Shown here one piece after another: positions 38,931 through 43,047 of a stretch of DNA of 64,000 nt. The notes beneath the pieces are model-generated. The model ran no database searches. It saw only the letters and a program-made list of their open reading frames with translations, and was not told the DNA's origin. The translations under genes and the position numbers were made by a program. Position 1 is the first letter of the stretch; every line of letters starts with the position of its first letter. The DNA lies in NCBI RefSeq assembly GCF_041415945.1, contig NZ_JBGCUS010000001.1, positions 1,178,001-1,242,000 of the forward strand, given 5' to 3'. This DNA comes from Ancylobacter sp. IITR112. Its GTDB lineage: Bacteria > Pseudomonadota > Alphaproteobacteria > Rhizobiales > Xanthobacteraceae.

Positions 38931-39587
38931 TCAGAGATCCAGGCGCGCCGCCAGCTCGGCGGCGAGCGCGCCGAACTCGGCCGCGCCTTTCGAGCCGGGC
39001 TCGGTCTCCAGCGCCGTCAGGCCCCGGCCCATGCTGGCGGCGAAGCCGACGCGGTTGCCGAGCCGCGTTTGCGCGGCGGGATGGCCGAGTGCCTCGATGG
39101 CCGCCGCCATCTCCTGCGTCAGCGCGGCGCGCGGCTGCGCCCGATTGATCACCAGCAGGCAGGCCGTGCCTTCCTTGCCGATCATCTCCAGCGTGGGACG
39201 GGTGGCCCACAGATCGACGGGCGTCGGCTGAACGGGCACGACGACGAGATCGGCGACCTCGATTGCCGGACGGGATTCCACGTCCGATTTCGGTGGGGTG
39301 TCGATGACGACGATGTCGTGGTCCCGCGTCAGGCTGCGGGCCTCGCGGCGCGCGCCCCAGCCCGAGGCCGTACGGAACGACAATCCGGTGCCCCGTTCGC
39401 CGAGGCTGGCTTCGCGGGCTTCGAACCATTCGCCCAGACTACCCTGGGGGTCGCAATCGAGCAGGGCGATACGGGCCGGCAGCCCCAGAACCATGTGTCG
39501 CGTCAGGGCAACAGCGAGATGGGCCGCCAGCGTCGTCTTGCCCGAACCGCCCTTCTGCTGGGCGATAGTGATAATTCTGCCACTCAT
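38931..39587 (-). CDS. Orphan ParA-family ATPase
   Basis: The 218-residue protein has the deviant Walker A KGGSGKTT (residues 12-19), the switch I-like DCDPQGSLGEW, Walker B VVIDTPPK and ends without an N-terminal DNA-binding extension, so it is a small type Ib-like ParA/MinD relative. No ParB, MinC/E or conjugation gene lies next to it. Similar orphan ParAs position chemoreceptor arrays, carboxysomes or plasmids, or are VirC1-like; none can be assigned here. Two near-identical 19-bp direct repeats lie upstream of its start. It is bordered by the 1.8-kb void downstream. Confidence 0.88.
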   Translation of the reverse strand: MSGRIITIAQQKGGSGKTTLAAHLAVALTRHMVLGLPARIALLDCDPQGSLGEWFEAREASLGERGTGLSFRTASGWGARREARSLTRDHDIVVIDTPPKSDVESRPAIEVADLVVVPVQPTPVDLWATRPTLEMIGKEGTACLLVINRAQPRAALTQEMAAAIEALGHPAAQTRLGNRVGFAASMGRGLTALETEPGSKGAAEFGALAAELAARLDL

Positions 39588-39718: not shown

Positions 39719-40417
39719 CTAGGTGCCGGCCGGCGAACCGAGCACGACGACCTTGGTTCCTACTCCCACGCGGCCATAAAGGTCGATGGCGTCCTGGTTG
39801 ATCATGCGAATGCAGCCGGATGAGACATTTGTGCCGATGGTGTCGGGCTCAAGGGTCCCATGGATCCGGTAGAGTGTGTCGCGTCCGTCCTGCCAGAGAT
39901 ACATGGCCCGCGCCCCCAGCGGATTGGAGAGGCCACCAGGTACCCCGTCGCCACCCTGCAGCTTTGTGAGTTGCGCCTGTATGTCGGGGCGACGCTGGAT
40001 CATCTCCTTGGGTGGGTACCAGTCCGGCCATTCCTGCTTGCTGTTGATGGTTGCAACGCCGGACCAACCAAACCCCTCCTTGCCAACACCGACACCATAG
40101 CGGATGGCGCGACCGCCAGGTTGCACCAAATAGAGAAAATGCGCCCGCGGATCGATGACGATGGTGCCCGGTGGGTAGCTGGAGGTATAGGCCACCTCGC
40201 GGCGGAGATAGACAGGGTCGATCTGTGACGTATCAACCGCAGCAATAGGAAATTTATCCGACACCGCTCCATACTGGCCGGGAGGTGCGTATCCTGTGGT
40301 GGCGCCCAGAGAGGTGAGGGGGCTGCTGGTCGCGGTGGTGCGTTTGCATCCGGCCAGGGTTACGGCTGCGCCGACGGCGAACAACCCGAGGAACGAGCGG
40401 CGATGAACGTCAGGCAT
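39719..40417 (-). CDS. L,D-transpeptidase (YkuD) lipoprotein
   Basis: The 232-residue protein begins MPDVHRRSFLGLFAVG with a twin-arginine-like pair and a lipobox LAGC (C24), so it is probably a lipoprotein. The YkuD domain follows (IDPRAHFLYLVQPGGRAIRY) with catalytic YRIHGT and SSGCIRM, the Cys being the nucleophile. Such enzymes form 3-3 peptidoglycan crosslinks or attach outer-membrane proteins to the wall. The gene ends at the GC-rich parA side and starts next to a lower-GC region. An SD (GAAAGG) lies 6-8 bases upstream. Confidence 0.92.
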   Translation of the reverse strand: MPDVHRRSFLGLFAVGAAVTLAGCKRTTATSSPLTSLGATTGYAPPGQYGAVSDKFPIAAVDTSQIDPVYLRREVAYTSSYPPGTIVIDPRAHFLYLVQPGGRAIRYGVGVGKEGFGWSGVATINSKQEWPDWYPPKEMIQRRPDIQAQLTKLQGGDGVPGGLSNPLGARAMYLWQDGRDTLYRIHGTLEPDTIGTNVSSGCIRMINQDAIDLYGRVGVGTKVVVLGSPAGT

Positions 40418-41356
40418 AGAGCAACCTTTCGGGCGTTGTTTGCTGAATCTTAACCTTAGTTTGGTAAACAAATGCTTGCACCGGAAGCGGGTAAGCGGAC
40501 GATTCGGTTGATCCGTGCGGGCAGTCACCCGTTGGCGACTCACGACATGTACTCTGAATATGGGTGCTGATCGGCGCGCCGCGAAGGCACTTAAGCATAA
40601 ATACTAACTATCTCTCCTCATTCAGTCCTGGCCATTTCCCCCAAAGAGTGCATCTATCAACCGCAATCATGTGTCGGATCATTTGTTACGCGATAATAGT
40701 GTTTAAACAATGGGATGGCTGAAAAATCTAATAGATCGAGTGATTGCATTTGGCGGTAACATCACTGCAAACCAACGCCTAGACATATGAAGGCTCAATT
40801 TCATCCAATGGCCTGGTGTCGCTGCGATTTGTGAGGCTACCCAGCGTGAAGTGGGGTTGGCTAAAAGGGCTCCCTGGGTACATCGGCGGATGCGGTGCCG
40901 CGCCGAACTCGACAATCGGGCGGTGCTGCGTCGATGGGGCGCGGGGTGAGGCTCTCGGCTGTTCACGCGCGCGAGTCACGCCGCGTCCAGGCGTGGAGCT
41001 CAGTTAGCAATAGTGTATGAATGCCCGGCTTAGTGTTTCGATTGACATATCCACTGTCTCAGTGACCGATTTCGGGAAATTAGCTGAAGCGAGCGTCATA
41101 AACGGTATAAAAAATGGGGTTATACCAAGTAGTTAAGCGAGAAACATTGAGCGTAAAGTTAGGTCGCGTGCCGGCACGCAGAACTAAAAAGGCAGTGGTA
41201 GAGATAGGTGTGTTGAATGAATATTTATCGCGGCCTAGTAGGGCGAGCGGCTCGTTTGGATGAGGGCATTGCCGGGTGCTGGCCGGGAGGGCGGCTGCCG
41301 CTGATGGCCGGTTCTAGGTGGTGAATCGAGCTTCGGGACGGACTTGAAAGAAACAG

Positions 41357-41365
41357 TGATATAAG
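41357..41365 (+). promoter_or_regulatory. Extended -10 promoter of the DUF7662-PIN pair
   Basis: TGATATAAG fits the extended -10 form TGnTATAAT with one mismatch. A TTGAAA at 41344 is too close to be its -35. Predicted start near 41372, 31 bases before the first gene. Confidence 0.5.
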
Positions 41366-41374
41366 TAGCATCGG

Positions 41375-41389
41375 CATATGATGGATATG
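41375..41389. promoter_or_regulatory. Inverted repeat, possible operator of the DUF7662-PIN pair
   Basis: CATAT-N5-ATATG lies between the predicted transcription start (about 41372) and the Shine-Dalgarno GAAGGG (41391-41396). A bound repressor would block transcription, the usual arrangement in toxin-antitoxin operons. Confidence 0.5.
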
Positions 41390-41402
41390 AGAAGGGTCGG
41401 CC

Positions 41403-41939
41403 ATGTCTAAATACAGTGCCCTTACAACGTTTCTCTCGAGTCGCTCTCAGCCGCGAATATCTATGTCATTCGAGGACATAGAGAGAATCGTTGGATCAAA
41501 ACTTCCGCAATCCGCCTTCAATCACCGGGCCTGGTGGAGCAACAATCCAACCAACAGTGTGATGACAAAAGCCTGGTTGGCTGCGGGCTTCCGATCGGAA
41601 GAGGTGGACATGACCGCGCGCAAGCTGGTGTTCAGTCGCCAGGTGCCACTGCCAAGCACGGCAGGGGCGAACAGGGTTGCGCCTGCGTCGACAGGCTCGC
41701 CGCTTGCTGGATTGTTCGGCGGGCTCAAGGGAACGCTGCACATTGAGGCCGGAACCGATCTGACCCTGCCCAGCACGGCGCCCATCTATCTCTATGGCGG
41801 CAGCGAAGTGGAGGCCCAGATCGAGGGCACCGATCCGCCGTCGCAGCCGCTGTGGCGATCCGATCACACGACCGAACTCGACCTAATGGAACAGGAAAAT
41901 AATCCGTTGTTGCGGCGCAACCTTTCCGGGGAGAATTGA
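41403..41939 (+). CDS. DUF7662-type protein, putative antitoxin
   Basis: The 178-residue protein starts with a segment I recognise as DUF7662-like: FEDIERIVGSKLPQSAF followed by HRAWWSNNP and AWLAAGFRSEEVD (residues about 23-69). The remaining 100 residues are not recognised; they contain a Gly/Ser/Ala-rich stretch and end in an acidic-then-basic tail (ELDLMEQENNPLLRRNL). The gene is separated from the PIN gene by one base, has a good SD (GAAGGG) and a promoter/operator-like upstream. Position before a PIN toxin-like gene suggests an antitoxin that also represses the operon, with DUF7662 perhaps the DNA-binding part. This role is inference. Confidence 0.7.
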   Translation: MSKYSALTTFLSSRSQPRISMSFEDIERIVGSKLPQSAFNHRAWWSNNPTNSVMTKAWLAAGFRSEEVDMTARKLVFSRQVPLPSTAGANRVAPASTGSPLAGLFGGLKGTLHIEAGTDLTLPSTAPIYLYGGSEVEAQIEGTDPPSQPLWRSDHTTELDLMEQENNPLLRRNLSGEN

Positions 41940-41940
41940 G

Positions 41941-42357
41941 ATGGGCATGCCGCTTCTCCTGGATACTTGCGCAGCGCTTTGGGTGGCGCAGGGTGCGCCT
42001 ATTGCCGACGAGGCGCGGGGCACGCTGATCGAGGCCCGCCTGCGCGGCGCGCCGATCTCTCTTTCGCCGATGACCGCCTGGGAACTGGGTCGCCTGGTCG
42101 AACAGGGGCGGGTGCGCCTTGCGATGGAGCCGGCGAAGTGGTTCGCCGCCCTTGCCGGCCTGCCAGGCATGAGCATCGCCCTGATGACGCCGGAGACATT
42201 GATTGCCTCCTCCTTCCTGCCCGGCCTGCCGCCGTTGGACCCGGTCGACCGGGTGCTGATCGCGACGGCGCGCGACCAGGGCTACCGGCTGATGACGCGG
42301 GATCGGGTTATTCTGGACTACGCCGCAACCGGCTATGTTCAGGCGGTTGCCTGCTAG
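41941..42357 (+). CDS. PIN-domain protein, VapC-like putative toxin
   Basis: The 138-residue protein has the PIN acidic set: D8 (LLLDTCAALW), E48 (SPMTAWELGRL), D100 and D103 (LDPVDRVLIATAR) and D121 (MTRDRVILDY), as in VapC RNases of the Sll0205/YP_-type group, which cleave tRNA or rRNA when free of antitoxin. It begins one base after the DUF7662 stop. The usual VapC partners (AbrB, Phd, VapB) are absent. The C-terminal strand ends YVQAVAC. No gene follows in the same direction within the operon. Confidence 0.88.
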   Translation: MGMPLLLDTCAALWVAQGAPIADEARGTLIEARLRGAPISLSPMTAWELGRLVEQGRVRLAMEPAKWFAALAGLPGMSIALMTPETLIASSFLPGLPPLDPVDRVLIATARDQGYRLMTRDRVILDYAATGYVQAVAC

Positions 42358-42447
42358 GGACGGTTCTTGGGCTGTCGCGGGCGAGGGCGGCCGACGTCCC
42401 TGTGGCGCGCAGGACACGCACGGACGGGCGCCGCTGCGTGCCATAGG

Positions 42448-43047
42448 TCAGCGGGGGCGTGGCAGCGGGGTCACAGCCTCGACCCAGGCATAGTCGAGAT
42501 ACCCGGCGCGGGAGAGAGGCTGCAACCTCTCGATGCATACCCTGCCGGCATCGAGGAAGCGGTCGTCAATATGGATCCCGACGATCTCGCCATAGGTAAC
42601 GTGTGAGCCGGTCGCGCGGCCGAAGCGGTCGACCATCTGGACTGTGTCGATCCAGACACATTCGAGCGCGCAGGGCGCTTCGGCCACACGTGGCGGCGAA
42701 ACCACATGGCAGGGCGCCCGGGCCAGCCCGGCGAGGTCAAATTCGCTCTCGCCCGGCGGCAGCGGCGTGGAGGTGAGATTGACCGCCTCCATCAGAGCGC
42801 GGGTGGCGAGATTGCAGACGAAGGCTCCGGTGGCGCGCGCGTGGCGGGCCGTGTCCTTCAGCCCGCTGCTGGAGAACATGACGATGGCCGGATTTTCGCT
42901 GACAAGATTGAAGAAGGAATAGGGGGCGAGATTGGCCACCCCCTGCTCGGAGAGGGTCGAGATCCAGCCGATCGGGCGCGGCGCCACGATGGCCTTGAGC
43001 GGATTGTGCGGCAGGCCGTGATTATTGAGGCCGGGTTCGTAGAACAT
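42448..43047 (-). CDS. Flavin reductase family protein (FMN-binding)
   Basis: The 199-residue protein shows the flavin-reductase-like split-barrel signature: IVAPRPIGWISTLSEQG, NLAPYSFFN and PAIVMFSSSG near the start, then NLTSTPLPPGESEFDLAG. These proteins bind FMN and reduce flavin with NAD(P)H, often supplying a partner oxygenase. The closest flavour is the DIM6/NTAB type. It starts 3 bases after the nitroreductase stop, so both are co-transcribed; partner and substrate are not known. Confidence 0.88.
   Translation of the reverse strand: MFYEPGLNNHGLPHNPLKAIVAPRPIGWISTLSEQGVANLAPYSFFNLVSENPAIVMFSSSGLKDTARHARATGAFVCNLATRALMEAVNLTSTPLPPGESEFDLAGLARAPCHVVSPPRVAEAPCALECVWIDTVQMVDRFGRATGSHVTYGEIVGIHIDDRFLDAGRVCIERLQPLSRAGYLDYAWVEAVTPLPRPR

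Follow-up and report, generated by a model that had tools for sequence, protein, structure and literature searches.

The 64,000-nucleotide stretch of Ancylobacter sp. IITR112 analyzed here (contig NZ_JBGCUS010000001.1, positions 1,178,001–1,242,000, forward strand; hereafter the window) carries two adjacent open reading frames (ORFs), ORF1 and ORF2, which most probably constitute a VapBC-like type II toxin-antitoxin operon, with the usual DNA-binding half of the antitoxin replaced by the domain DUF7662. ORF1 (41403–41939, +) encodes 178 residues and ORF2 (41941–42357, +) 138 residues; ORF1 is located directly upstream of ORF2 on the same strand with a gap of one base, an antitoxin-type gene order, and both reading frames are intact. 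This assignment is built on the pairing and its recurrence, the VapC-like predicted fold and acidic set of ORF2, the likeness of the ORF1 tail to that of known antitoxins, and purifying selection on the winged helix, the tail and the PIN domain. In the proposed mechanism, ORF2 would act as a PIN RNase toxin and ORF1 as its antitoxin, in which the DUF7662 winged helix would bind to the promoter of its own operon and repress it, and the disordered residues 98–126 would become folded against the PIN protein, blocking the acidic site of the toxin. Relative to the usual partner of sister PIN proteins, the Phd DNA-binding half would have been exchanged for DUF7662 and the toxin-binding tail kept.

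Architecture of ORF1 and ORF2

The pair is divided into the following segments, for which pN/pS is the ratio of nonsynonymous to synonymous differences among Ancylobacter copies and pLDDT the predicted local distance difference test score.

41403–41642, +: ORF1 residues 1–80, DUF7662, predicted winged helix (Pfam; AlphaFold2; pN/pS 0.088)
41643–41693, +: ORF1 residues 81–97, linker (low pLDDT; pN/pS 0.52)
41694–41780, +: ORF1 residues 98–126, tail around LFGGLKGTLHIEAGTDLTLP, predicted PIN-neutralizing peptide (conservation; Phd-type likeness; pN/pS 0.145)
41781–41936, +: ORF1 residues 127–178, C-terminal extension (weakly constrained, pN/pS 0.69)
41941–42357, +: ORF2, PIN domain protein, predicted VapC-type RNase toxin (PF01850; VapC-like predicted fold; acidic set)

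A reading of the window from sequence only (the sequence-only reading) had described two genes one base apart, the first of DUF7662 type and the second a PIN protein with the full acidic set D8, E48, D100, D103 and D121, and Pfam bears out both assignments. Residues 4–79 of ORF1 match DUF7662 (PF24698) with an E-value of 9.3e-20 and 70.7 bits, compared to the Pfam cut-off of 26. This is the sole Pfam match of ORF1 up to E 1, a range in which the Phd/YefM N-terminal domain PF02604 was not found. AlphaFold2 modeled residues 1–80 with a pLDDT of 90–97 per block, and comparison of the DUF7662 model against solved structures gave RepE as the best match, followed by CtsR, both matches being weak. 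From this model, DUF7662 is predicted to be a winged helix that is putatively DNA-binding. When solved structures were searched by sequence, ORF1 gave one chance row (E 1.8) and its profile nothing usable.

ORF2 matches the PIN family (PF01850) with an E-value of 1.5e-8, and its five acidic residues are all invariant over 45 aligned sequences (ORF2 and 44 relatives). The predicted fold of ORF2 is VapC-like, and we infer that ORF2 is a PIN RNase toxin, for which toxicity and RNA cleavage would be expected. A search of its sequence against solved structures returned TALE proteins and a single carboxylase, none with an E-value below 0.08, which were taken as chance, and the same search with the PIN profile gave nothing usable. 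Neither ORF matched any NCBIfam or PADLOC model up to E 1, and the proposal of the sequence-only reading is supported as far as the two genes are a candidate pair of type II, of an antitoxin type that these two libraries miss. A search of Rfam over 40400–42600 gave nothing at the gathering threshold.

The tail of ORF1 resembles that of Phd-type antitoxins

Residues ~104–124 of ORF1 are conserved over 112 aligned sequences, with G106 and G110 kept in 110, D119, L120 and P123 in 111, and T121 in 107. A profile of 100 tails was compared with 23 antitoxins of sister PIN proteins, against a background of 11,500 shuffled sequences of which the best scored 7.2 bits. The 23 antitoxins were hand-chosen; among those omitted are the partners at loci L171, L186 and L188 and the Phd-like genes of L068–L077 and L079. 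Twelve of the 23 scored above every shuffle, and E < 1e-4 was reached in 8/23; the profile aligns to the C-terminal parts of these antitoxins, for example IFGCMKGTVRTVGDIVSPVDVEWEAD of L173. The remaining 11, including the Phd protein of L078 from the same genome, scored no better than shuffles. Because 12/23 antitoxins beat every shuffle in this comparison, the ORF1 tail is taken as homologous to the tail by which Phd-type antitoxins bind their toxins, the DNA-binding half having been swapped. A protein search with the tail alone, which returned three proteins, all of them DUF7662, was superseded by the profile comparison; in addition, a solved-structure search by sequence with the Phd partner of L164 gave no match.

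A Doc toxin has been shown to be neutralized by a grafted C-terminal region of Phd (PMC10440598). By analogy, a tail of this kind may neutralize the PIN protein. The sequence-only reading had proposed that the C-terminal 100 residues of ORF1 could neutralize the toxin; the C-terminus does look neutralizing, but the part in question narrows to about residues 98–126. Residues 127–178 are nearly unconstrained. The same reading had held that the first protein is not Phd, which is correct for the N-terminal DUF7662 domain but not for the tail, which resembles the Phd type.

Recurrence of the pair and other uses of DUF7662

Searching with ORF1 yielded 342 related proteins, of which 120 were listed. 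An alignment of ORF1 and 17 of these proteins was scanned against named genomes and gave 153 relatives; the analysis continued with the 80 that scored best, a set biased toward tail-bearing proteins. The survey of DUF7662-PIN adjacency that the sequence-only reading had proposed found the same PIN family directly downstream in 78 of these 80, with the PIN profile match starting −23 to +30 bases from the stop codon of the ORF1 relative. The two exceptions are L094, in which the PIN gene is present and both frames are disturbed, and L155, which has a different PIN protein (PF01850, E 4.7e-10). Most of the 80 are titled Alphaproteobacteria, in addition to a few metagenome-assembled genomes (MAGs) labeled Nitrospinota, Acidobacteria or Aminicenantes (labels as deposited). 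Two DUF7662-PIN pairs, L104 and L126, lie ~10 kb apart on contig MPNJ01000011.1 of a MAG labeled Nitrospinae.

From the toxin side, ORF2 was searched against 199 genomes of the order, giving 35 places, of which 30 were examined. In all of the best 17 loci (L050–L066), the upstream gene matches the ORF1 profile with E 6e-18 or better, including L065, where DUF7662 is unseen by Pfam and the tail is present; among the other 13 no upstream gene matched the profile (best E 0.024). One related PIN protein, L078 (G000:C1:656155–656553), is encoded in the same genome as the window, with a Phd/YefM antitoxin (PF02604), and cross-talk between this Phd-PIN pair and ORF1-ORF2 is possible. Ten of the other 12 toxin-side loci, all but L072 and L076, have an upstream gene that is Phd-like by eye. 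A wider search of 289 genomes of the class (loci L160–L188, 29 in number, with L183 and L184 left out) revealed an ORF1-like gene at the two strongest new loci, L160 and L161, followed by a tier of mostly Phd-like partners, as judged by eye. The partner at L174 is PSK_trans_fac-like (E 0.017, below cut-off), and that at L177 resembles it by eye. The members of the pair are inherited together: over 50 pairs, the Mantel correlation with PIN distances was 0.83 for the domain and 0.42 for the tail. These are the pairs recognized by the motif search, including five whose tail was unrecognized by the motif.

A set drawn by the domain only, in which DUF7662 was found in 24/101 relatives and 22/398 genomes of the phylum, comprises 49 distinct loci. 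Twenty-three of them have the tail together with a downstream PIN of the ORF2 family, 25 lack both by the test used, and L012, counted as tail-bearing by a loose motif, has another PIN. L030, counted among the 25, ends in a different C-terminus, beside a PIN protein below the Pfam cut-off. For the 24 tail-less loci that remain, the profile of the ORF2 PIN family found no downstream match, and Pfam detected no PIN in 22 downstream ORFs (≥80 residues) from 18 loci, the other six being without such an ORF. In total, 25/49 DUF7662 loci are beside some PIN and 24/49 are not. The sequence-only reading had named DUF7662 genes normally standing alone as the finding that would speak against a pair, and this is half true: the 24 loci at which no downstream PIN was found lack the tail. 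Because tail and PIN co-occur across the 49 loci, it is the tail, not DUF7662 alone, that marks the antitoxin form, and DUF7662 is, on sequence comparison, a domain of several uses.

These other uses include a short gene by itself and, at L016, a gene before a protein weakly like DUF5655, below cut-off. In the same genome as the window, a second, tail-less DUF7662 gene (L026, G000:C1:2351308–2351541) is followed by a DUF805 protein (PF05656), an order also seen at L025 in another genome of the genus. Among phages, six Streptococcus records match, over the DUF7662 domain only; in the one inspected, phage Javan575 (L223), a DUF7662-like stretch ends a phage protein annotated RloF. Fourteen plasmid records match, none over 80% of ORF1, and four that were inspected have no listed PIN neighbor (the gene table being incomplete). 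In a Thermococcus barophilus plasmid (L221), a DUF7662-like stretch lies inside a protein adjoining a gene annotated ribonuclease J. Fifteen stretches of viral contigs matched a pattern, none of them a relative.

At L012, L155 and L030, DUF7662 is joined to other C-termini, beside other PIN proteins. By eye these C-termini are ribbon-helix-helix (RHH)-like in L012 and L155 and VapB-like in L030; Pfam gave nothing convincing for them. We tentatively consider, at somewhat less than even chances, that DUF7662 serves antitoxins as a general scaffold and acquired at least three tails (the Phd-type tail of ORF1, the RHH-like and the VapB-like, the last two labeled by eye), each with its own PIN type, and that three N-terminal domains (Phd, PSK_trans_fac-like and DUF7662) share one Phd-type tail. 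In that case, the tail and the DNA-binding half would be cassettes that evolution exchanges freely, and DUF7662 might contribute a trigger of its own, because the domain also ends the phage protein annotated RloF.

Relation to known systems

The VapBC structures with RHH or AbrB antitoxins include those of Shigella and Rickettsia felis, and FitAB. ORF1 differs from these antitoxins in that Pfam sees only DUF7662 in it. Compared to the Phd-PIN type of VapBC, the pair likewise has a small antitoxin gene followed by a PIN gene of the same wider family, and a C-terminal tail similar to that of 12 of the 23 tested antitoxins; however, the N-terminal domain of ORF1 is DUF7662, not Phd. A literature search found no paper on DUF7662 or PF24698, although an older paper could use another family name, the Pfam name DUF7662 being presumably recent; nor did it find a paper linking VapC with Ancylobacter.

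Makarova et al. (2009) predicted the PIN-associated antitoxins DUF433, COG2886, DUF104, COG1753 and a truncated MerR (PMC2701414). Similar to ORF1, these are new and mostly DNA-binding-like PIN partners, but none of those described in section 9 of that paper fits DUF7662, as judged from the descriptions. Panacea and the other modular antitoxins of NetFlax likewise place a linear neutralizing segment on an exchangeable folded domain (PMC10440598); they differ in that the domain of ORF1 is DUF7662, which NetFlax might list under another name. Altogether, the system type is well known, and DUF7662 as its predicted DNA-binding half is new as far as our searches reach.

The pair points to a likely function for one form of a domain of unknown function, and would add an antitoxin type that NCBIfam and PADLOC miss. 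Similar short tails on different DNA-binding domains would also constitute a natural experiment in antitoxin modularity, in which the closest relatives of the PIN toxins beside such tails change partner accordingly.

Promoter and operator region

The upstream region of ORF1 contains the following elements.

41344–41371, +: candidate promoter TTGAAA-N16-TAGCAT (consensus scan only, 9/12 matches)
41351–41367, +: promoter stretch AAACAGTGATATAAGTA, which resembles the ACACTGACATA.GTA of several congeners (10 upstreams aligned, judged by eye)
41375–41389, no strand: CATAT-N5-ATATG inverted repeat CATATGATGGATATG (read in the sequence)
41390–41395, +: AGAAGG, Shine-Dalgarno-like, of ORF1 (read directly; 7 bases before the ATG at 41403)

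The extended −10 element TGATATAAG (41357–41365), the inverted repeat and the Shine-Dalgarno sequence are present as the sequence-only reading gave them, the −10 element falling inside the spacer of TTGAAA-N16-TAGCAT, which the consensus scan found once against 0.3 expected. The proposal that the inverted repeat is the operator for autorepression is not supported. Although CATAT-N5-ATATG is the best inverted repeat of the window within 90 bases before the start, about a third of shuffles reach its score (p 0.36), and it occurs in only one of ten congeneric upstreams, that of the window itself, and in none of the nine other congeners. The exact string occurs once in the 64-kb window against 0.01 expected, a value that addresses that single string only. 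The stretch 41351–41367 may be the likelier operator region, albeit on weak evidence because a −10 element would be conserved too.

Analysis of 78 upstream stretches of paired genes, after removal of those that had no start codon at the aligned place, were short or were duplicates, and of L155, revealed that the best inverted repeat beats shuffles (p ≤ 0.05) in 20/78, compared to 5/78 random windows of the same loci and 3/23 upstreams of tail-less DUF7662 genes. The 8-mer ATAGTTAC/GTAACTAT occurs in 16/78 upstreams against 0.28 expected, and no 8-mer occurred more than five times in 40 shuffled sets; related species inflate both the inverted-repeat and the 8-mer counts. L107 has a strong inverted repeat, AATAGTTAC-N3-GTAACTATT, and in several Bradyrhizobium loci ACACTTATAAAGCTTTAATAGTGT overlaps TTGACA. 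A comparison of operator type with DUF7662 residues, of which the best columns were D25, N48 and S37, was left unused, relatedness being uncontrolled.

These results bear on an alternative in which ORF1-ORF2 is a type II pair but DUF7662 does not repress, and either senses a trigger or only tethers and dimerizes the antitoxin. It would suit the occurrence of the domain away from PIN (alone, with DUF805 at L025 and L026, with the DUF5655-like protein at L016, and in the phage RloF protein), and Panacea, an antitoxin domain of another kind, has been proposed to act as a sensor (PMC10440598). However, inverted repeats are enriched before paired genes, and the shared half-sites fit an autoregulator, as does the winged-helix model; we regard this alternative as unlikely, though the strongest of those considered.

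Selection and distribution in Ancylobacter

Among ten Ancylobacter copies, the ratio of mean pN to mean pS is 0.088 in the winged helix, 0.142 in PIN and 0.145 in the tail, but 0.52 in the linker, and the neighboring flavin reductase gene gives 0.274; as pS is high (0.49–0.67), these values are to be read as ranks. The extension at residues 127–178 (0.69 over 28 pairs) is present in eight of the ten copies and lacking in L004 and L005. The winged helix, the tail and the PIN domain are thus under purifying selection.

The flavin reductase gene was found in 30/30 genomes of the genus; the pair is beside it in ten and absent there in 20. In all 20 pair-less congeners, a YkuD gene lies on that side of the flavin reductase gene, within ~250 bases in 19. 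At L209:2110–2748, a flavodoxin-like gene (PF02525) lies between the YkuD and flavin reductase genes, with YkuD farther off. In the nine other pair-bearing congeners, the pair stands between the flavin reductase gene and the YkuD stretch, just as it does in the window, where an AT-richer stretch forms part of the separation between the YkuD and flavin reductase genes.

40544–41402, no strand: AT-richer stretch from the YkuD gene to the pair (859 bases, GC 52% compared to 67% for the window)

A single change on the flavin reductase tree accounts for the pair (support 85/79; 84% of bootstrap trees). Because it is present or absent at one junction and requires a single change, the pair is, as judged from these sequences, an accessory unit that was acquired or lost in one piece and has since been retained by a single species group; the YkuD/flavin reductase junction is possibly a small hot spot of insertion. 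None of the 20 pair-less genomes had a match listed in the DUF7662 search.

Residence at one place in ten Ancylobacter species, for which the tree needs only one change, indicates a stable chromosomal gene there, as would be expected if the PIN protein were an RNase with a housekeeping or regulatory function and ORF1 acted as its transcription factor, with no addiction or toxicity. Yet 20/30 congeners lack the pair there and have no listed DUF7662 match, and the tail is shared with Phd-type antitoxins of sister PINs; together with the VapC-like predicted fold, this renders a housekeeping role improbable. That the two genes are chance neighbors or a decayed locus, of which the disturbed frames of L094 (1/80 relatives) would be an instance, is refuted by the adjacency survey (78/80), with the intact frames of the window and the strong purifying selection also against it, and its likelihood is negligible.

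Close to the ORF1-ORF2 pair, the window also carries a gene for a ParA/MipZ-like ATPase (38931–39587).
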